Assembly (NCBI GenBank): GCA_026625165.1
Contig: CP112999.1
Location: forward strand, 1,302,001 to 1,366,000
Length of the DNA stretch: 64,000 nt
DNA from: Methanoregula sp.
GTDB taxonomy: Archaea; Halobacteriota; Methanomicrobia; Methanomicrobiales; Methanospirillaceae
Direction: 5' to 3'
Positions 12,004-21,196 of this stretch are shown piece by piece. Numbering within the stretch: position 1 is the stretch's first letter; each line of letters begins with the position of its first letter. The notes beneath the pieces were generated by a model. It saw only the letters and a program-made list of their open reading frames with translations, had not been told where the DNA came from and searched no databases. Made by a program: the position numbers and the translations under genes.

Positions 12004-14391
12004 TTACTTTTTCTCCATCTGTTCTTCAATCGATTCTGTCTGCTTCTTAATCTCGGCAAAGTCTTTTTTCCGCTGGAATGTCTGCCTTCGCAATCCATCG
12101 ACTGCAGCCGGATCAACCTTTGCTGCCGTCAGCCCGGATCGTTTGATTGTGGACACTGCATGTTCGAGCACCGTGCGCTGGTCCTGGTTATAGAGCATCT
12201 CCCATGCCTGCCGCTCGGATTTTTCGATCGCGTCCCGGTCAAGCGAGCCCCGTACCTTGCCCATCGCGGTTTCGAAATGCTTCTTTGTGATCATCACATT
12301 CTTGATTGCATCCGTCCGCTCCTGTTCGTTCTTGTCTGCCATTGCGATGATGAACTCGCGCATCGCACCCATCTTTGCCTCGCGGACGAGTGCTTCAATA
12401 TCGGCACCGACATATCCTTCGGTCTGTTTTACAAGTTCTCCTGTGTCTACGTCCTTTGCAAGGATCGCCCCGGATTCGCCGAGATAAACCTCGAAGATCT
12501 TCCTGCGGCTCTCTTCATCGGGCGCCGGTACGTAGATGTGTCGCTCGAGCCGCCCGGGGCGCAGCAGCGCATCGTCCAGCATATCCGGCCGGTTTGTCGC
12601 TGCCAGCACCGTCACGTTCTTGAGTTCCTCCATCCCGTCCAGCTCGGTGAGGATCTGGGAGACCACGCTCTCGGTTACGTGGGACGACCCCATGTACGTG
12701 CCCCGCTTGGGCACGAGCGCGTCGATCTCGTCAAAGAAGATTATGGACGGGGACGCCTGCCGGGCTTTCCGGAAGATCTCGCGCACACCCTTCTCTGATT
12801 CCCCCACCCACTTGGATAGGAGCTCCGGACCTTTGACTGCGATAAAGTTGCACTCGCTCTCGTTTGCCACTGCTTTGGCAAGGAGCGTCTTGCCCGTTCC
12901 CGGAGGGCCAAACAGCAGGATTCCCTTGGGTGGCCTTGTCTGGAGTTTCTCGAATACATCAGAGTATTTCAGCGGCCATTCGACGGCTTCACGCAGCTCC
13001 TGCTTGACATCCTCGAGCCCGCCCACCTGTTTCCAGGTAATATCGGGGACCTCGACGAGCACCTCGCGCATGGCAGAGGGTTCGACATGCTTCCTTGCCT
13101 CGTCAAAGTCCTCTTTATTTACCTTAAGCGCATCGAGAACCTCGTCGGGGATCTCTTCATCAATCTTGATCTGAGGGATTACCTTGCGCAGCGCATGCAT
13201 TGCAGCTTCTTTAACGAGCAGTGCGATGTCGGCTCCGACGAATCCATGCGTTGTGTTGGCAAACTCCTCGATCTTTACATCGTCTGCCAGCGGCACACCG
13301 CGGGAATGCACCTGGAAGATCTCCAGCCTGCCTTTCTTGTCAGGTATCCCGATCTCGATCTCGCGGTCGAACCGGCCGCCTCTCCGCAGCGCCGGGTCAA
13401 TGGAATCGGGAAGGTTTGTCGCTGCAATGACGATGACCTGCCCGCGCCCTTTGAGGCCGTCCATGAGCGCAAGGAGCTGGGCAACCACCCGCCGCTCGAC
13501 CTCCCCCTGCACCTCAGCGCGTTTTGGCGCGATTGCATCGATCTCGTCGATGAAGATTATCGCCGGTGCGTTCTGCTCGGCTTCCTCAAACTTCTCCCGC
13601 AGCCCTTTTTCGGATTCCCCGTAATACTTGCTCATGATCTCCGGGCCGGAGAGCGTGATGAAGTGGGCGTCCACCTCGTTTGCCACTGCCTTTGCAATCA
13701 GGGTCTTGCCCGTGCCGGGCGGCCCGTAGAGCAGCACCCCCTTGGGAGGCTGGATACCCAGACGTTCAAAGATCTCCGGGTGACGGAGCGGAAGCTCGAT
13801 CATCTCCCGGACGAGCTGGAGTTCCCTCCCAAGGCCGCCGATATCCTCGTAGTGGATATTTGAAGTATCCTTCTTGCCTTCCTCTTCCTTGTACGGTTCC
13901 TCCTTGAGTTCGATCTCGGTCTCATCGGTAACTATCGCTATCCCTTTTGGATTGACCTTTGCGATAACAAGCGTGATTGAATTTCCGATAACGTCAACCC
14001 TGACTGTCTGGCCCTCGATTACCGATCGCCCGCGCAGGAGCCGGGACAGGTACTGTTCTCCACCAACCAGCCGTATCGGCTGCGTTGGCTGGATGACCAC
14101 CCTCTTTGCGTACGCGGCTTCGGATTTCCGGATCTTCACCTTTTCATCAATACCGGTGCCCACGTTCCCACGGATGTTGCCATCTATCCGGAGGATTGCC
14201 CCCCCGGTATCCTGAGCAAACCCGGGCCATACGATTGCCGCGGCTTTCCGCTTGCCCTGAATCTCAATAACATCGCCGGACACAAGCCCCAGCTTCTTCA
14301 TCACCTCGATACTCACCCGCGCGATGCCGCGCCCTGCATCGTCGTGGGCTGCTTCCTTTATGGTTACTTCTGTGAATTCTTTTTCAGTCAT
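12004..14391 (-). CDS. Cdc48/VAT-type AAA+ ATPase
   Basis: This 795-residue protein unfolds or remodels proteins as a hexamer, often feeding the proteasome. It has an N domain (double-psi barrel, about 1-190) and two AAA modules, each with Walker A GPPGTGKT (near 223 and 494), Walker B FIDEIDA or FFDEIDA, and arginine-finger segments ([25 protein letters not shown]). The C-terminal tail is charged. The ATG at 14391 follows a strong GAGGAGG. A minus-strand TATA element lies at 14445-14452. The mobile element begins at 14466, directly upstream of that promoter. It forms an operon with the hsp20 gene downstream. Confidence 0.97.
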
Positions 14392-14444: not shown

Positions 14445-14452
14445 TATATAAA
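14445..14452 (-). promoter_or_regulatory. Probable TATA box of cdc48
   Basis: Read on the minus strand, the bases are TTTATATA, a good archaeal TATA box, about 53 nt before the cdc48 ATG. The expected BRE would lie at about 14453-14458. The target duplication of the mobile element starts at 14458, so the insertion abuts or touches the BRE. Confidence 0.6.
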
Positions 14453-14465
14453 TATTGCGTGAATG

Positions 14466-14540
14466 GGTTCTGTTGCGTTGGAGGGACTTCGCGCTTTTTT
14501 ATTCAAGGTGTTGCATGGCGGGACTTTTTGGATTTATTAA
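14466..14540 (+). repeat. Left end of mobile element (bipartite inverted repeat)
   Basis: The outer box is 24 bp (14466-14489). It is followed by a 19-nt variable spacer and an inner box TGTTGCATGGCGGGACTT (14509-14526), then GATTTATTAA (14531-14540). The right end has the same boxes, inverted, with an identical 19-nt spacer. The two boxes in each end resemble each other, so each end looks like a pair of transposase binding sites. Confidence 0.85.
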
Positions 14541-14578
14541 CGTCACCTTTAATGGTTTGACATTCAAATTACTTTTCA

Positions 14579-17500
14579 ATGGCTCTTCCAGAAACTATCA
14601 TCACTCTTTTAAACAATTATGATTTTCATCGTACCGCATACCGCAAATCAACACAAGAATATAATGAGGCAAGACTCCGTAGAGATTTTTTAGATCCCTT
14701 CTTTAAAGAACTTGGTTGGGATATGGACAATAAAAAAGGATATTCTGAGAGATATAGAGAAGTCGGGCATGAACAGCCAATAAAAATTCAAGGCCAAACG
14801 GAATTCATCGATTACACATTTAGAATTGGGGGGATGACAAAATTCATCGTAGAAGCGAAGGCCCCCTCAGTAAATATAAAAAACAATCGTGATGCCGCGC
14901 TTCAAGTTAGAGGGTACGCGTGGAGTGCCAAAATTCCATTATGTATTTTGACAAATTTTGAAGAATTCGCAATATATGATTGCACAAAAAAACCTCTGGG
15001 TTCTGATGCAGCTGTTACCGCCCGCGATGATTATTTTACTTATAACGAATATCCAAAAAAATGGGATTTGATTTCCTCTATCTTCTCACAAGATGGTATT
15101 TTAAAAGGTTCTTTTGATAAATATGTGACTGTAGCAGAAGGTAAAAAGGGGACGGCAAGCGTTGATGAATCATTTCTTATTGATATTGAAAATTGGAGAG
15201 AGCAACTCGCAAAAAATATTGAACTTCGCAATCAAAATCCGTCATTATCTGTTGATGAATTGAACTTATCAGTCCAAACTATCCTCGACCGTATTATTTT
15301 CCTTCGTTTTTGTGAAGATCGGGATATCGAAACCTATGAGACGCTAAAATCATTCGTAAATAATGATAACATCTATAAATCTCTTTGTGATTTTTTTAAA
15401 AAGGCAGATGCAAAATATAATTCAGGACTTTTTCATTTTAATAATGAACCCGACCGTGAGCAACCAGATATTATAACACCCAATCTTGTAATCGATGATA
15501 AAATAATTAAAAATATTATTCTAGAGTTGTATCCCCCGAAAAATTATTATTTATTTTCAGCGATTCCCCCAGAGATTTTAGGGCAAGTTTACGAACAATT
15601 TCTTGGTAAGGTAATTAGAATCACGGAAAAAAATCATATAAAAATTGAGGAAAAACCAGAGGTAAAAAAAGCCGGCGGAATTTACTATACACCCCAATAC
15701 ATAGTTGATTATATTGTAAAAAATACTTTAGAGGAATTACTAAAAAATAAAACACAAAAAGACGTATCAAAAATTCACATTCTCGATCCAGCTTGTGGTT
15801 CTGGTTCATTTCTGTTGGGAGCTTATCAATTTCTTTTAAACTGGCATCTCGAATGGTATCTAAAAAATCTTGTTCCTTTACTTAATCCAGAATTTAATAA
15901 AGAACCCAAACCGATTTCAGATCCCGATATCCAAGCATTACTTCCAGAATATCCCCCAAATGGAAAAAAAGAGGTTCCAATTTATAACGCTGGATATAGT
16001 AAGGAAATCCATTCTCGTTTAGGAGATCGGCGGAGGAGTGATTGGAAACTTACGACCTCCGAGCGAAAACGAATTCTTTTACATAATATTTTTGGAGTTG
16101 ACATTGATCATCAAGCAGTGGAAGTAACCAAACTCTCACTTCTCCTCAAGGTATTAGAAGAAGAAAATGAAGAAACGATGAAATTTCAACTTGAGCAAAA
16201 TCATGGGCGGGCTTTACCATCACTTCATAAGAATATAAAATGTGGAAATTCGCTGATAGAGTGGGATATTTTAGAACTACAACCACCACAAGAAGAAGTT
16301 AAAAAAATCAACGCTTTTGATTGGGAACAAGAATTTCCAGATATAATAAATTCGGGGGGATTTGATGTGGTAATTGGGAATCCTCCCTATGATGTTTTAG
16401 AGAAAGAACGGGGTAAGAGTTCCTGGCCACATTATGTATTAAGTGATTATGTTAAAATGAGAGCAGATTATAGTAATGCACTCGGTGGGAAACTAAATTT
16501 ATACAGATTTTTCTTGGTTAGGTGCATGAAATTAACTAAAAATAAAGGTTTTTTTGGAATGATTGTCCCCTTATCTATTCTTGGAGATATTAGTTGCACA
16601 AAAACACGACTTTACCTGCTTCGATGTTTAACCAATTTAAACGCCGATTGTTTCCCCCAAAAGGATAATCCGAAACGGAGAGTTTTTTTAAAAGCAAAAT
16701 TATCGACTTGTATTCTTGTGGGTAGTAGAGAAAATATTGATCTCAACGATTCTCAAATTCACGTTCGAGTTTATCCTTGGAATAAATTTGATGATCTCCT
16801 CAAGGAATGTCGTTATTATACCCCAGATTTAGCGTTGCTCGATCCAATAAATTATCCGGTTCCGTTAGTCGATGAAAACAATTGGAATGTTTGTAAAAAA
16901 ATATACACAACCAAAAATATAAAACGGCTCGAAGAGCTGGGGGTGTATTTAGTTAATCGAGGAGAAATCAACCAAACTGTTTTCCGCAAATACATATCGG
17001 AGGATACTAAAAAATCACGATTATTAAAAGGTGTTGAAGTTGGGAGATATTTCATAAATCCAATTCTTCATCAGGGTTTCCGCGAATGGTTTGATGACAT
17101 TGCATGTAAAAAAGACGGGGTCGAGAAACCAATAGCACTAAAAGAACGTATCGCAACTCAACGGATTACTGGTGTAGATGACACATTACGTATTATTGCG
17201 ACATTGATCTCTCCTCCGACCTATTTTGCCGATTCGACAAATTCTATCACTTTATCTGATGATACTAAATACTCCCTAGAATATTTGCTTGGTCTATTAA
17301 ATTCAAAATTGTTTCAATGGCGTTTCAGGATAACAAGTTCGAATAATAACGTTGGAACAAACGAATTGGAGTGCTTACCAACCCGTATAATTGATTTTAA
17401 TAACCCAACCGAAAACGCTCTGCATGCACGTTTGGTCTCCTATGTAAAACAGATGCTTAACCTTAATACAAAACTGCAAACAACAAGAGATGATCAAGAA

Positions 17501-17611
17501 AAAACAGTAATTCAGAGGCAAATTATTGCGATAGATAACAAAATTGAATTATTAATTTTCGAACTTTATGGATTAACAGAAAACGAGATTAAAATAATCC
17601 AGATGTCTTAA
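14579..17611 (+). CDS. Type IIG restriction endonuclease/adenine methyltransferase
   Basis: This 1,010-residue single-chain enzyme would both cut and methylate DNA. The N-terminal nuclease domain shows a PD-(D/E)xK site (FIDYTFRIGG with D78, then FIVEAKAP with E92 and K94). The methyltransferase has motif X (GGIYYTPQYIVDYIV, about 366-380), motif I (DPACGSGSF, about 402-410) and motif IV (NPPYD, about 600), which marks an N6-adenine enzyme of the gamma class. The remaining part of about 350 residues (GLLNSKLFQWRF and onward) is the target-recognition region. Length and order match Eco57I/BseRI-like enzymes. Codons are strongly AT-rich compared with neighbours, which supports transfer. The recognition site is unknown. 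Confidence 0.9.
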   Translation: MALPETIITLLNNYDFHRTAYRKSTQEYNEARLRRDFLDPFFKELGWDMDNKKGYSERYREVGHEQPIKIQGQTEFIDYTFRIGGMTKFIVEAKAPSVNIKNNRDAALQVRGYAWSAKIPLCILTNFEEFAIYDCTKKPLGSDAAVTARDDYFTYNEYPKKWDLISSIFSQDGILKGSFDKYVTVAEGKKGTASVDESFLIDIENWREQLAKNIELRNQNPSLSVDELNLSVQTILDRIIFLRFCEDRDIETYETLKSFVNNDNIYKSLCDFFKKADAKYNSGLFHFNNEPDREQPDIITPNLVIDDKIIKNIILELYPPKNYYLFSAIPPEILGQVYEQFLGKVIRITEKNHIKIEEKPEVKKAGGIYYTPQYIVDYIVKNTLEELLKNKTQKDVSKIHILDPACGSGSFLLGAYQFLLNWHLEWYLKNLVPLLNPEFNKEPKPISDPDIQALLPEYPPNGKKEVPIYNAGYSKEIHSRLGDRRRSDWKLTTSERKRILLHNIFGVDIDHQAVEVTKLSLLLKVLEEENEETMKFQLEQNHGRALPSLHKNIKCGNSLIEWDILELQPPQEEVKKINAFDWEQEFPDIINSGGFDVVIGNPPYDVLEKERGKSSWPHYVLSDYVKMRADYSNALGGKLNLYRFFLVRCMKLTKNKGFFGMIVPLSILGDISCTKTRLYLLRCLTNLNADCFPQKDNPKRRVFLKAKLSTCILVGSRENIDLNDSQIHVRVYPWNKFDDLLKECRYYTPDLALLDPINYPVPLVDENNWNVCKKIYTTKNIKRLEELGVYLVNRGEINQTVFRKYISEDTKKSRLLKGVEVGRYFINPILHQGFREWFDDIACKKDGVEKPIALKERIATQRITGVDDTLRIIATLISPPTYFADSTNSITLSDDTKYSLEYLLGLLNSKLFQWRFRITSSNNNVGTNELECLPTRIIDFNNPTENALHARLVSYVKQMLNLNTKLQTTRDDQEKTVIQRQIIAIDNKIELLIFELYGLTENEIKIIQMS

Positions 17612-17618
17612 AAAATCT

Positions 17619-17780
17619 CTATTTTTCTTTTTCGTTCTCAATCGGATCTAAAAGAAGAATTTTCACTTGTTTTCCGATCCAATCCTTTGGTAGATAAATG
17701 CCCCCGGAGTTACCCATAGACTTAACGGGGCGATCTATTACCTGATACGCCTTTGTTGTAATTTCCATCATTTCTGGCAT
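17619..17780 (-). CDS. DUF2080-type transposon-associated small protein
   Basis: The 53-residue product reads ...AYQVIDRPVKSMGNSG followed by GIYLPKDWIGKQVKILLLDP. The pattern GNSG...YLPK.WIGK.VK..LL is that of the short AbrB-like DUF2080 proteins that accompany archaeal transposase genes. A DNA-binding or regulatory role in transposition is inferred. The gene is divergent from the transposase at 17904 and its stop lies 8 bp from the stop of the restriction-modification gene. The start could be ATG 17780, 17771 or 17768; no Shine-Dalgarno decides. The family call is from memory. Confidence 0.7.
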   Translation of the reverse strand: MPEMMEITTKAYQVIDRPVKSMGNSGGIYLPKDWIGKQVKILLLDPIENEKEK

Positions 17781-17865
17781 AACAATACATTGTATCGTTA
17801 TTGTATTTAAAATAATTTACTTTGTGCTGGTTTTGTCCATACTTTGTAACAAGTATTAAATAGTT

Positions 17866-17884
17866 GTATATACATAGTATATAC
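17866..17884. promoter_or_regulatory. Palindromic repeat before transposase gene
   Basis: GTATATAC occurs twice (17866-17873 and 17877-17884), separated by ATA. Each half is itself a palindrome, so the site is both a direct and an inverted repeat. It lies 20-38 bp before the transposase ATG, between a TATA-like stretch (TATTAAATA near 17854) and the start. It could bind a repressor such as the adjacent DUF2080-type product. Confidence 0.4.
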
Positions 17885-17903
17885 TATACAATACAAGGAG
17901 TGA

Positions 17904-19088
17904 ATGAAGATGGATCAATTCAGCAACCCAAGAGAATTGAGAGGATTAAAAATCCTGTCAGAACCGGATACGATTATTAAGACCGGCAAGAATGGGTGGG
18001 ATGTTCGGTCACAGTCAAAGGATGCATACTATCAGGTATCACGAAAGTTTGTGAGCCACGGAAAGGAAAACCGATATAGTTGGTCATGCACCTGCCCGGA
18101 TCATACGACAAGAGAGGTAATCTGTAAACACATTTTCGCCGTTCAGTTCTCCCTAAAACTTAAAGTAGATGTAGAGACTGATATTAAAGCTCAAAAAATT
18201 ATAGGTGATGAAATTGGGGTCACCTGTCCAATTTGTAAAAGCCAAAACGTCATAAAGCGCGGGATCAGAACAACCTCTTACGGTGAGATCCAGCGGTATG
18301 GTTGCCACGACTGCAACCACAGATTTGTTGTTGATAAGGGATTCAGCCGGGTTAAGTTCGATCCTAAAGTGATCACACTCACTCTTGATCTCTATTTTAA
18401 GGGAGTCTCCCTTCGGAAGATTACCGATCACATCCAGCAATTCCATGATAGGAAAGTCTGCCAGACAACGCCGATGCGCTGGATCAAGAAATATATCCAA
18501 CTGCTTGGGAAGTACGCTGAGAAGTACGAAGCTGAGGTTGGCAACATCTGGCACTCTGATGAGACAACCGTGTTCATCAAGAAGGAAGGCCAGAAGAAGT
18601 GCTATGAGTGGATCTGGAACATCATGGATGCAAAGACTCGGTATCTCCTTGCCTGCCAGATTACCGAGACACGGTTTGTAAACGATGCGCGGATACCGTT
18701 AAAGATTGCAAAGGAGACGGCCAACCGCAGACCGGATGCAATCGTTACCGATGGGTTACAGGCTTACCAGAAGGCAATCAAAGCGGAGTTTTATGATATA
18801 ACCGCACCGATCCAGAATCCCCATATCAGACTCAAAGACTTTGAGACAAAGCCAAATAACAATATCCTCGAACGGTTAAACGGGACATTCCGAGAGAGAA
18901 CAAAGGTTATGCGTTCCCTTGATAGCTCCGTAGGAGCGCAGGAGTTCGTTGCAGGAATGCAGACTTACTATAATTACATCCGACCTCATCAAGGAATCGG
19001 GGGATTAACACCGGCGCAGATGGCAAATATCCCGATCAATCTGATGGGGAATAGATGGGAAATGATGATTGGACTGGCGGTAAAATAA
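17904..19088 (+). CDS. IS6-like DDE transposase with N-terminal SWIM zinc finger
   Basis: The 394-residue protein has three parts. Residues 40-85 are a SWIM zinc finger (SCTCPDH...VICKHIF: C62, C64, C74, H76). Residues 105-140 are a zinc ribbon (CPIC and CHDC). A helix-turn-helix-like segment leads into the DDE catalytic core: D219 in HSDETT, D283 in VTDGLQAY and E323 in ILERLNGTF, with the ending NYIRPHQGIGGLTP typical of IS6-type enzymes. SWIM fusions are known in archaeal transposases. AAGGAG at 17895-17900 is only three nt from ATG 17904 but nine from ATG 17910, so the shorter form may be the real one. It is the only recombinase in the element. Confidence 0.9.
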   Translation: MKMDQFSNPRELRGLKILSEPDTIIKTGKNGWDVRSQSKDAYYQVSRKFVSHGKENRYSWSCTCPDHTTREVICKHIFAVQFSLKLKVDVETDIKAQKIIGDEIGVTCPICKSQNVIKRGIRTTSYGEIQRYGCHDCNHRFVVDKGFSRVKFDPKVITLTLDLYFKGVSLRKITDHIQQFHDRKVCQTTPMRWIKKYIQLLGKYAEKYEAEVGNIWHSDETTVFIKKEGQKKCYEWIWNIMDAKTRYLLACQITETRFVNDARIPLKIAKETANRRPDAIVTDGLQAYQKAIKAEFYDITAPIQNPHIRLKDFETKPNNNILERLNGTFRERTKVMRSLDSSVGAQEFVAGMQTYYNYIRPHQGIGGLTPAQMANIPINLMGNRWEMMIGLAVK

Positions 19089-19092
19089 TTTT

Positions 19093-19866
19093 TTAGATGA
19101 GAGCTGGAAGGATCTCCGGTCTCTCCTCCCAAAACAATACTTTATCCGAAAATTTCCTTAATTTTGGAAGTTGCCGTTTCCATACACTTATCTCATCGTC
19201 TACTTCGTCGTCCAAGAAACACAGTTTGTAAAAGTTACCATTTAGTCCCTTTAATTGAATCCAATTTACTATTGTTTTATTTGTTAGAGTTTCGGCATAC
19301 TGAGACGATTCGGAATGGAGCGCATAAGCGAAGACTGGATCTTTCTGATGTCTTTGAATTTCAAAATCTACCTTAATCCTTTCACCAGTATCAGATGTAA
19401 ATTCTTTATTTTGGGCATAGCTGATGCTATTATCCTTCAGCCATACAGAGACATCATCAATAAATGCAGACTGAACCCGTGCCTTGCTGGTGTAGATCAA
19501 ATATTGTATGGATTTTATCGCTTCAATAAAGTCCAAAATCTTCTCATACAATTCTGCCTTGTTCGAGTGAAGTATTAGTTCATCATTTTTTAATTCAATC
19601 TCGTATTGATGTATGATTGAGTCAAAATACCAATCTTGCTTTGTGTTGGGTTTGATATCCACTCCTTGTAAGAAAAGATACCCTTTTGTGCGGGTTTGAT
19701 CGGAGATCTCGATAATATCTCCAATCTCGGTTAATTGAATAGTAATCGGATCTTGGCTCGGATCTAAAAATGGAGTGACAATCTGGCATCCTGTCTTTCC
19801 CGATTTAATTTTGAATTTCTTTCCGAGATCTTTTAACAGGTTGCCAACTACGTCATCACACACCAT
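19093..19866 (-). CDS. DUF1828/DUF1829-type protein, possible toxin-antitoxin partner
   Basis: The 257-residue protein starts with a DUF1828-like half (QIVTPFLDPSQDPITIQLTE, then GDIIEISDQTRTKGYLFLQG). Its second half resembles DUF1829 (RIKVDFEIQRHQKDPVFAYAL). Such proteins are common on phages and mobile elements, and their biochemical role is not settled. The ATG at 19866 lies one nucleotide after the TAA of the preceding gene, so the two are translationally coupled. The stop is 4 bp from the transposase stop on the other strand. Family calls are from memory of the motifs. Confidence 0.7.
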   Translation of the reverse strand: MVCDDVVGNLLKDLGKKFKIKSGKTGCQIVTPFLDPSQDPITIQLTEIGDIIEISDQTRTKGYLFLQGVDIKPNTKQDWYFDSIIHQYEIELKNDELILHSNKAELYEKILDFIEAIKSIQYLIYTSKARVQSAFIDDVSVWLKDNSISYAQNKEFTSDTGERIKVDFEIQRHQKDPVFAYALHSESSQYAETLTNKTIVNWIQLKGLNGNFYKLCFLDDEVDDEISVWKRQLPKLRKFSDKVLFWEERPEILPALI

Positions 19867-19867
19867 A

Positions 19868-20422
19868 TTAAACCAACCCCAATGTCGGTTGAAATTTAAA
19901 ATCCTTCAAATCCACATTACATTCATTTAGAAAATCAATTAATGCTCCGTTTGCGTCATTTAATCGGATATCAATTGTAGCATAAGCGCATTTATCTCTA
20001 TAGGATGGGTGATGAAAGTGTTTGTGTGGCTCATCGATCACTATTTTTTTCCCATCGACCTTTGGATTTGGATGTGGAGTGGAATCGTCCCATCTTCTGA
20101 TAACGATATTTTTGAATAATAATGCAAATCCGTAATGAGACGTTTCTTCATTCTGATAACACCACCCCCTTATCCTCATTGGGGTTCCATCTTCTGTACT
20201 AAGTGTTATAGTGAGTTGTTGTTTTTTTCCTCGTTGATTGTCCCACCTCACCAATTGCGGACTCTGAATAATTTTTGGTGCGGTATAGAGAGCGTCTGCT
20301 TCCTCTTTAGACAGACTGAAAAAAGCCATTAATAATTCACAGATATTGAGTAATGATTTACAATATAAATTGTTTCTTAATAAATCGAAGTCCCGCGATG
20401 CAACAGTCTCATTTTTTTTCAC
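19868..20422 (-). CDS. Unknown protein (possibly DUF6978-like), first gene of pair
   Basis: This 184-residue protein has no family I can name with certainty. It may belong to DUF6978, because the stretch IRRWDDSTPHPNPKVDGK with EPHKHFHHPSYRD resembles the histidine-rich PHxH region of that group, which is often found next to DUF1828 genes. It is soluble, with no membrane segment. The GTG at 20422 is preferred because GGAGGGAC lies 5-6 nt upstream. That Shine-Dalgarno is inside the terminal inverted repeat, and the start codon lies 2 bp from the repeat's inner edge. A promoter must lie in or beyond the repeat. Toxin-antitoxin function with the next gene is inferred only. Confidence 0.6.
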   Translation of the reverse strand: MKKNETVASRDFDLLRNNLYCKSLLNICELLMAFFSLSKEEADALYTAPKIIQSPQLVRWDNQRGKKQQLTITLSTEDGTPMRIRGWCYQNEETSHYGFALLFKNIVIRRWDDSTPHPNPKVDGKKIVIDEPHKHFHHPSYRDKCAYATIDIRLNDANGALIDFLNECNVDLKDFKFQPTLGLV

Positions 20423-20448
20423 TCAAGTCCCTCCAACGCAACAGAACC
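20377..20448 (-). repeat. Right end of mobile element (bipartite inverted repeat)
   Basis: On the minus strand the 24-bp outer box (20448-20425) is identical to the left end. After a 19-nt spacer the inner box TGTTGCATCGCGGGACTT follows (20405-20388), then GATTTATTAA. The outer box contributes the ribosome binding site of the gene starting at 20422. The 8 bp beyond, CGTGAATG, repeat the bases left of 14466. Confidence 0.85.
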
Positions 20449-20456
20449 CGTGAATG

Positions 20457-20519
20457 GGTTCTGATTAGTTGGCGGGACTTTTACGGTTTTGAAAATAAGT
20501 GATAAATGACGAGACTTCC
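20457..20519 (+). repeat. Degenerate copy of the element's left end
   Basis: GGTTCTGATTAGTTGGCGGG and the next four bases (20457-20480) match the 24-bp outer box at most positions. After exactly 19 nt comes TGATAAATGACGAGACTT (20500-20517), a weakened inner box. It begins directly after the right target duplication, so the present element inserted next to an older end. Confidence 0.65.
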
Positions 20520-20593
20520 CTTATATTTTTTAATCAGGATAATATGTAGCAGAATCCACAATATATTTAAGATAAGATTTTGGATTTAATGTC

Positions 20594-20803
20594 ATGGAAT
20601 ACTTTGAATTGTTTTCCATTTTAGTAGGTGTTGCATCGTATTTTGTTCTTCGAGAAGTACTTAAAAAACATATGAATTTGACCCCAGAACAGGAATCTGC
20701 TGGTTTTTTTGCATGGTCAAATGAGAGAAAAGGTGCTCCTCTTCTTGTAATGATTGTAATATTGGTTATTGTTCTGGTATTATGCCTTATAGGATCAAGA
20801 TAA
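20594..20803 (+). CDS. Small membrane protein, unknown
   Basis: The 69-residue product has two hydrophobic segments (LFSILVGVASYFVLREVL and APLLVMIVILVIVLVLCLIG) joined by a polar loop (KHMNLTPEQESAGFFAWSNERKG). I do not recognise a family. The gene is AT-rich and lies between repeat copies at 20457 and 20809-20911, so it may be cargo left from an older insertion. No clear Shine-Dalgarno precedes the ATG. Confidence 0.45.
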   Translation: MEYFELFSILVGVASYFVLREVLKKHMNLTPEQESAGFFAWSNERKGAPLLVMIVILVIVLVLCLIGSR

Positions 20804-20849
20804 AGATTGGATTCTGTTGCATGAAGTGAGTCGAAGTTTTATGATCTGA

Positions 20850-20911
20850 GGTTCTGTTGCGTTGGAGGGACTTTTAAAAAAAGTGGGATGAGTGTTGCAT
20901 TAACGGGACTT
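20850..20911 (+). repeat. Solo copy of the element's left end
   Basis: The 24-bp outer box (20850-20873) is identical to the element's ends. It is followed by a 19-nt spacer and an inner box TGTTGCATTAACGGGACTT (20893-20911). A looser match (GGATTCTGTTGCATGAAG) begins 41 bp earlier at 20809. No right-hand partner with target duplication is seen nearby. The rest of the gap up to thiC (20912-21196) holds nothing I recognise. Confidence 0.75.
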
Positions 20912-21196
20912 TTGTCCCGAAAGAGGCGGAGGAGAGGCGGTGTCCGGTTGCAGAACTTATTTTTCTGCCCTGATTGGTAAAATGACATGATGATACCGCT
21001 GTACTGGAAGCTTCGCCGGATCGCAAAAGAAGTCAGGTTATGTTAAAATTTAATTGAGATCTTGACACAAAGACAAGGAAAACAAAAGAATTTTCCTTAT
21101 CCCAAATCAACTTTACTTGTGCTCAAAACAACTAAAATTTAGTCCAGAATCAGAAAAACGAGCCTTTATCTTGTCTTTTAAGAAAATATACAGGCT

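Follow-up and report, generated by a model that had tools for sequence, protein, structure and literature searches.

A 5983-bp transposon with five genes (positions 14466-20448), found in a 64,000-nucleotide (nt) stretch of a Methanoregula sp. genome (GenBank CP112999.1, positions 1,302,001 to 1,366,000; hereafter the window), lies at the promoter of a cdc48 gene. We propose that it belongs to an archaeal transposon family that very probably inserts at a site fixed by the promoter: the transposase would read the promoter, each copy would renew the site, and stacks of elements would build outward. The fixed spacing, intact motifs, empty sites, stacks and cargo behind this proposal are all observed. 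In the window, exactly 5 nt separate the left target-site duplication from the cdc48 TATA box downstream of it, these nucleotides being the position of the B recognition element (BRE). The target site and the element ends are as follows:

12004-14391, minus strand: target gene, a cdc48/VCP-like ATPase of 795 aa, promoter intact
14445-14452, minus strand: TATA box of the cdc48 promoter, TTTATATA
14453-14457: the 5 nt separating TATA box and duplication, BRE position
14458-14465, no strand: left target-site duplication, CGTGAATG
14466-14489, plus strand: left terminal inverted repeat, 24 bp
14509-14526, plus strand: inner (second) repeat of the left end
20388-20405, minus strand: inner repeat of the right end
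20425-20448, minus strand: right terminal inverted repeat, 24 bp
20449-20456, no strand: right target-site duplication, CGTGAATG

The terminal inverted repeats match at 24 of 24 positions (25 of 25 with one base of the duplication; chance expectation 0) and show the GG tip, cTGTt motif and exact 8-bp duplication of IS6-type elements (GGTTCTGTTGC...; PMC7986276). The inner repeats are 94% matched, and the two repeats of each end lie about 40 bp apart. A pattern search of the host genome (2.17 Mb, one contig) located the exact 24-mer in three places only, all in the window. Repeat and open reading frame (ORF) analysis confirmed what an earlier note on this DNA had described, namely a complete transposon with a single transposase, intact 24-bp ends, an 8-bp duplication and four large ORFs (14579-17611 and 17904-19088 on the plus strand, 19093-19866 and 19868-20422 on the minus strand). 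That note mentioned neither a 53-aa ORF (17619-17780, minus strand) nor the third exact 24-mer at 20850 and the degraded end at 20457, and it also missed that insertion is promoter-fixed, that elements stack, that a DUF2080 gene accompanies the transposase and that the element has a whole family of relatives.

Searching by ends and duplication alone, without reference to promoters, we collected 59 bounded, transposase-bearing elements from Methanomicrobiales, Nitrososphaerota and Bathyarchaeia, in genomes that are mostly single assemblies of uncultured archaea. When TATA boxes (YTTAWAWA, at most one mismatch) were scored by their offset beyond the duplication, a match started at exactly +5 in 35 of the 59, against a mean of 0.65 and a maximum of 4 in 2000 draws of other offsets in the same flanks; the intergenic null for the same loci was 1.31% (149/11,372). 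Keeping a single element for each target gene leaves 47, of which 25 have the TATA box at +5 (P about 1e-34), and a looser test (at most two mismatches, offsets 2-7) gave 53 of 59 compared with 28% expected. In the position profile of 52 distinct promoters, positions +1 to +5 show a BRE-like (C/A)AAnA and positions +6 to +13 show TTTAWATA. The TATA box reads outward on one side of nearly every element, and the gene on that side typically starts 27-100 nt out, reading away from the element. Every clear insertion is found on the side of the TATA box where the BRE is, and both orientations of the element are represented (20 toward, 15 away). Target genes, named by reading translations, include those for cdc48 (window, L037; L and G numbers denote our loci and genomes), the thermosome (L038, L051, L185, L187), Hsp20 (L030, L031, L036), radA (7 of 59) and TFB (L191), as well as ribosomal and secreted proteins. 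These elements share with the bacterial TnGBS group a fixed distance between insertion and promoter.

The same base recurs across genomes. In the Nitrosopumilus group, 11 genomes have an element at the radA promoter and about 23 have none there (the empty site in L258 corresponds to the filled one in L207), and in every occupied genome the host sequence breaks at one position, 8 + 5 nt before the TATA box. Different elements have independently entered the same promoter at the same base, at cdc48 in the window, L037 and L288 and at the thermosome gene in L038, L051, L185 and L187; at L288 (genome G919) the end that abuts the occupied cdc48 position resembles the decayed one at 20457. An empty site in relatives, which the earlier note had suggested looking for, exists in six genomes with an uninterrupted cdc48-thiC interval (G164, G140, G081, G089, G184 and G915), relative to which the window has extra DNA from 14466 to about 21075.

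At about 14 loci, the end of another element directly adjoins the duplication on its far side, and stacks of this kind carry one common 8-bp sequence throughout (L032, L058, L187, L207, L226 and the window). Two bounded elements are present in five of the stacks, and in all five the element nearer the promoter has the better-matched ends (24/17, 22/17, 24/22, 23/19 and 24/16), which is the order predicted by repeated insertion at a promoter-fixed site and from which we infer that the newest copy lies nearest the promoter. The window fits this order, with an intact element beside cdc48 and a decayed one beyond.

Several observations weigh against promoter-fixed insertion. About 40% of the elements lack a TATA box with at most one mismatch at exactly +5, although most have a weaker one. 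In a control set of classical archaeal IS6 copies (about 700-750 bp, no SWIM part, recognisable ends and duplications) the TATA box was at +5 in 0 of 11, but these probably come mainly from GC-rich genomes (they appear to be mostly haloarchaeal), where the TATA pattern is rarer. The SWIM match scores 12.3, below the Pfam cut-off of 19.6, and the call depends on the invariant CxC..CxH. Insertion timing is deduced rather than observed, most of the archaea being uncultured and represented by single assemblies, and a contact with TBP or TFB is hypothetical. Finally, the orphan end at 20850 has no CGTGAATG duplication. Together with another at 20805, this end (20850-20913) points right, next to an 8-mer that differs from CGTGAATG and with no adjoining TATA box; both are older remnants that simple stacking is insufficient to explain.

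In the mechanism that we favour, the 8-bp site chosen by the transposase would directly adjoin the BRE, 5 nt from the TATA box and on the side facing away from the gene, and insertion would thereby leave the core promoter intact. As the same 8 bp would be regenerated beside the same promoter, the landing site would be renewed, so that the next element would land between the promoter and older copies, pushing them outward. The promoter is more likely to be read through the TBP-TFB complex on BRE and TATA than as bare DNA, because our searches located the family in archaea only and because conserved housekeeping promoters are preferred. In its fullest form, about which we are evenly divided, the transposase would dock on TBP-TFB, and strong housekeeping promoters would act as self-renewing pads where defence cassettes are ordered by arrival, the newest nearest the promoter. 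If true, such docking would make these DNA transposons analogous to CRISPR arrays, which add spacers at the leader-proximal end, and would be for archaea what Ty3/TFIIIB targeting is for yeast.

Alternatively, the transposase may recognise the BRE/TATA sequence directly, as a bent AT-rich motif, with no host transcription factor needed. The spacing is indeed relative to a DNA motif with a sharp logo, whereas a protein contact is hypothetical; we consider direct recognition possible but lean against it, given that conserved housekeeping promoters are favoured and struck again in different species, and given the confinement to archaea. The TATA box is moreover near-palindromic, yet the clear insertions are all on its BRE side, a bias that selection against insertions between TATA box and gene would also produce.

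The genes of the window element, and the remnants beyond it, are:

14579-17611, plus strand: cargo, type IIG restriction-methylation enzyme, 1010 aa (PADLOC PDLC03604, E=2.5e-182; Pfam Eco57I, HSDR_N, TaqI_C)
17619-17780, minus strand: transposase-associated protein of the DUF2080 family, 53 aa, encoded divergently to the transposase (Pfam PF09853, 7.5e-8; NCBIfam NF033496, 1.7e-14)
17904-19088, plus strand: transposase, 394 aa, with SWIM-type motif, zinc ribbon and DDE domain
19093-19866, minus strand: cargo, PDC-M24B / DUF1828, candidate defence gene (PADLOC match)
19868-20422, minus strand: cargo, PDC-M24A / DUF6978, candidate defence gene (PADLOC match)
20457-20480, plus strand: decayed left end of an older element, directly after the right duplication
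20850-20913, plus strand: orphan end, older remnant, with the exact 24-mer (20850-20873) and an inner repeat

The transposase has a SWIM-type CxC-x9-CxH motif (C62, C64, C74, H76), a zinc ribbon (C108, C111, C134, C137) and the catalytic residues D219/D283/E323 with R330, all invariant across 25 relatives with identity down to 29%. Its catalytic domain is nearest to IS6/IS240 (Pfam DDE_Tnp_IS240, PF13610, 52 bits against a cut-off of 27), and to this extent the earlier description of an IS6-like transposase stands; however, the window copy misses the NCBIfam IS6 equivalog cut-off of 125 (106.9 bits), which some relatives pass, and the N-terminal SWIM-type motif and zinc ribbon are atypical. 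The folds nearest to an AlphaFold model (mean predicted local distance difference test score 81) are DDE transposases and retroviral integrases, the nearest solved one being that of ISCth4, a Mutator-family transposase (template-modelling score 0.40); a PDB sequence search gave no strong match. Mutator-like descent (p-MULT 3/4) is not indicated, as Pfam Transposase_mut scores 13.9 bits against a cut-off of 21 and the best families are IS6/IS240.

Transposases of the same type occur in Methanoregula and other Methanomicrobiales, one Methanosarcinaceae metagenome-assembled genome, Nitrososphaerota and Bathyarchaeia. Bacterial plasmids gave no full-length homologue, the listed matches starting after residue 102 (the zinc-ribbon/DDE part, without SWIM) at 24-29% identity, and viral contigs gave SWIM-sized fragments only. 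Zinc-ribbon-only archaeal IS6 relatives (L108-L115), sought as a contrast to those with SWIM, yielded no convincing bounded copies. Cargo transposons that combine SWIM, zinc ribbon and an IS6-like domain are a widespread archaeal family, apparently hitherto undescribed. Most of the 59 elements also have an ORF of 45-80 aa upstream of the transposase and divergent from it; the ones that were scanned belong, several by a weak match, to the DUF2080, AbrB/MazE-like, ribbon-helix-helix or zinc-ribbon families, and the small DNA-binding protein would, in our model, probably repress the transposase.

The elements span 1.9-8.8 kb, and nearly every copy carries cargo. Among 114 cargo proteins scanned, the top families are N6_Mtase (8), N6_N4_Mtase (6), type I specificity (6) and Eco57I (6), and there are further endonucleases of the HaeIII, MvaI/BcnI and Bpu10I types as well as AbiV, Fic, proteasome-like and SDH-protease genes; the cargo is largely made up of restriction-modification and other defence genes. 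In the window, the product of 14579-17611 is a type IIG protein that fuses endonuclease (HSDR_N), N6-methylase (Eco57I/MmeI) and specificity (TaqI_C) parts, its activity being predicted; both this domain make-up and PDLC03604 bear out the type IIG defence cargo claimed earlier. The two minus-strand genes, previously taken for a toxin-antitoxin pair, instead match the PADLOC candidate PDC-M24A/B (DUF6978 + DUF1828), of which we found no earlier report in the open-access literature. A TumE toxin identity was rejected (score 20.9, below the Pfam cut-off of 23.4), and neither gene matches a recognised toxin or antitoxin family. Nor is the carriage of cargo the unusual trait that it was thought to be: across the family it is the rule rather than the exception, and the same ends flank other cargo, a check that the earlier note had proposed.

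An ordinary IS6-type transposon that by chance carries a restriction-modification gene and a toxin-antitoxin pair, as that note supposed, would explain the IS6-like ends, 8-bp duplication and catalytic domain (PMC7986276). We nonetheless regard it as improbable: IS6 elements are typically about 800 bp with one gene (PMC7986276), and the window element and its relatives fall outside the IS6 range of about 0.7-1.8 kb and a single gene; we found no promoter spacing reported for IS6, the two paired genes correspond to no recognised toxin-antitoxin system, and the family survey already contradicts the idea.

It is still harder to attribute the stacks to self-targeting beside an existing end rather than to promoter targeting. 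IS26 and IS30 relatives do act on existing ends (PMC7986276), and abutting ends are common here. However, first insertions also lie +5 from the TATA box at promoters with no older element, the better-matched copy in a stack is always promoter-proximal, and one duplication is common to all copies, which makes this explanation very unlikely.

Random insertion, with selection alone keeping copies at harmless upstream positions, is scarcely credible: insertions within genes would be purged and upstream intergenic sites tolerated for any element, but tolerance cannot set a one-base distance (35 of 59 at +5 against the 0.65 expected from other offsets in the same flanks), classical archaeal IS6 copies have no such spacing, and radA and cdc48 were struck repeatedly at the same base.

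Further copies extend the picture of the family. A few bounded elements beyond the 59 lack a transposase (for example, L032 12514-13629, L187 1623-5065 and the 402-bp L042); the first of these, a 1.1-kb non-autonomous member with end pairs and duplication, has just one ORF, whose translation looks proteasome-like. The short L042 element was compared with the remnant at 20457-20850, but homology was rejected, as the end alone matches. The host genome has a second element at a thermosome promoter (L038 5234-9727; G000:C1), with perfect 24-bp ends that differ in sequence from those of the window, a transposase interrupted by one TAA, and methylase-like and other genes aboard. At L191 (10363), an element lies at the promoter of the gene for TFB, itself the factor suspected to guide insertion. 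A lone end in G029 (L044 8945-8968) is the exact 24-mer of the window and lies +5 from the TATA box of a helix-turn-helix-regulator-like gene that resembles the target in L103. Facing end pairs about 80-92 bp apart, with no duplication and an inconsistent TATA box (L033, L034, L041, L045 and L046), are possible miniature derivatives or hairpins.

Insertion at a fixed distance from promoters is in itself known, from the bacterial TnGBS group and yeast Ty elements; for this transposase lineage and this domain of life we found no such report. The open-access literature yielded no earlier account of TATA-, TFB- or promoter-directed archaeal transposition and, as far as it shows, this would be the first promoter-anchored DNA transposon in archaea. 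The spacing amounts to a simple rule, readable from sequence, that tells where archaeal mobile elements of a widespread class will land, and it accounts for the gathering of defence genes beside cdc48, thermosome, Hsp20 and radA genes. With the +5 rule and the stacks, promoters could be mapped in uncultured archaea and their insertions placed in sequence, and an insertion that spares the promoter is a possible tool. Archaeal TBP and TFB are simple relatives of the eukaryotic machinery used by Ty elements, so how the transposase reads a promoter could be addressed in a purified system of TBP, TFB and a single protein of 394 aa.

Among known systems, IS6/IS26 elements share with the archaeal family the GG-tipped ends with CTGTT, the 8-bp duplications and a related DDE domain (PMC7986276). 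Typical IS6 transposases lack the N-terminal SWIM-type motif and zinc ribbon of the window protein, although IS6 clades h and i also bear a zinc finger or a further N-terminal extension (PMC7986276). ISH6 (p-MULT 2), a mostly archaeal insertion sequence, has an AT-rich target, AANATNTT, and a promoter preference has been speculated for it (PMC3942029); there, however, the AT-rich motif is the duplicated sequence itself, whereas in the family described here the TATA box is not part of the duplication but stands at a constant distance from it. Casposons and thaumarchaeal integrated elements resemble this family in that they integrate in tandem, with common duplications, in related hosts, but they use a casposase or tyrosine recombinase and target mainly tRNA or protein genes (PMC6563490); the same survey, which describes IS-like transposons of one or two genes, is silent on promoters, TATA and SWIM. 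Ty3 and Ty1 (PMC5911963, PMC10050235) likewise integrate upstream of genes under the direction of the transcription machinery, but they are eukaryotic retroelements that use RNA polymerase III, and their protein contact is proven, whereas that of the archaeal family is inferred. The closest parallel in behaviour comes from TnGBS, ISLre2 and ISKra4 (prokaryotic Mutator-like p-MULT 3 and 4), which are cargo-carrying DDE transposons that differ in size and enter upstream of promoters at a set spacing, 15-17 bp ahead of the -35 element of sigma-A promoters (PMC3942029); their symmetric-ended members insert in both orientations, as the archaeal elements do. The TnGBS group is bacterial, Mutator-like and tied to sigma-A, whereas the archaeal family is set 5 nt from BRE/TATA, joins an N-terminal SWIM-type motif to an IS6-like domain, and stacks.

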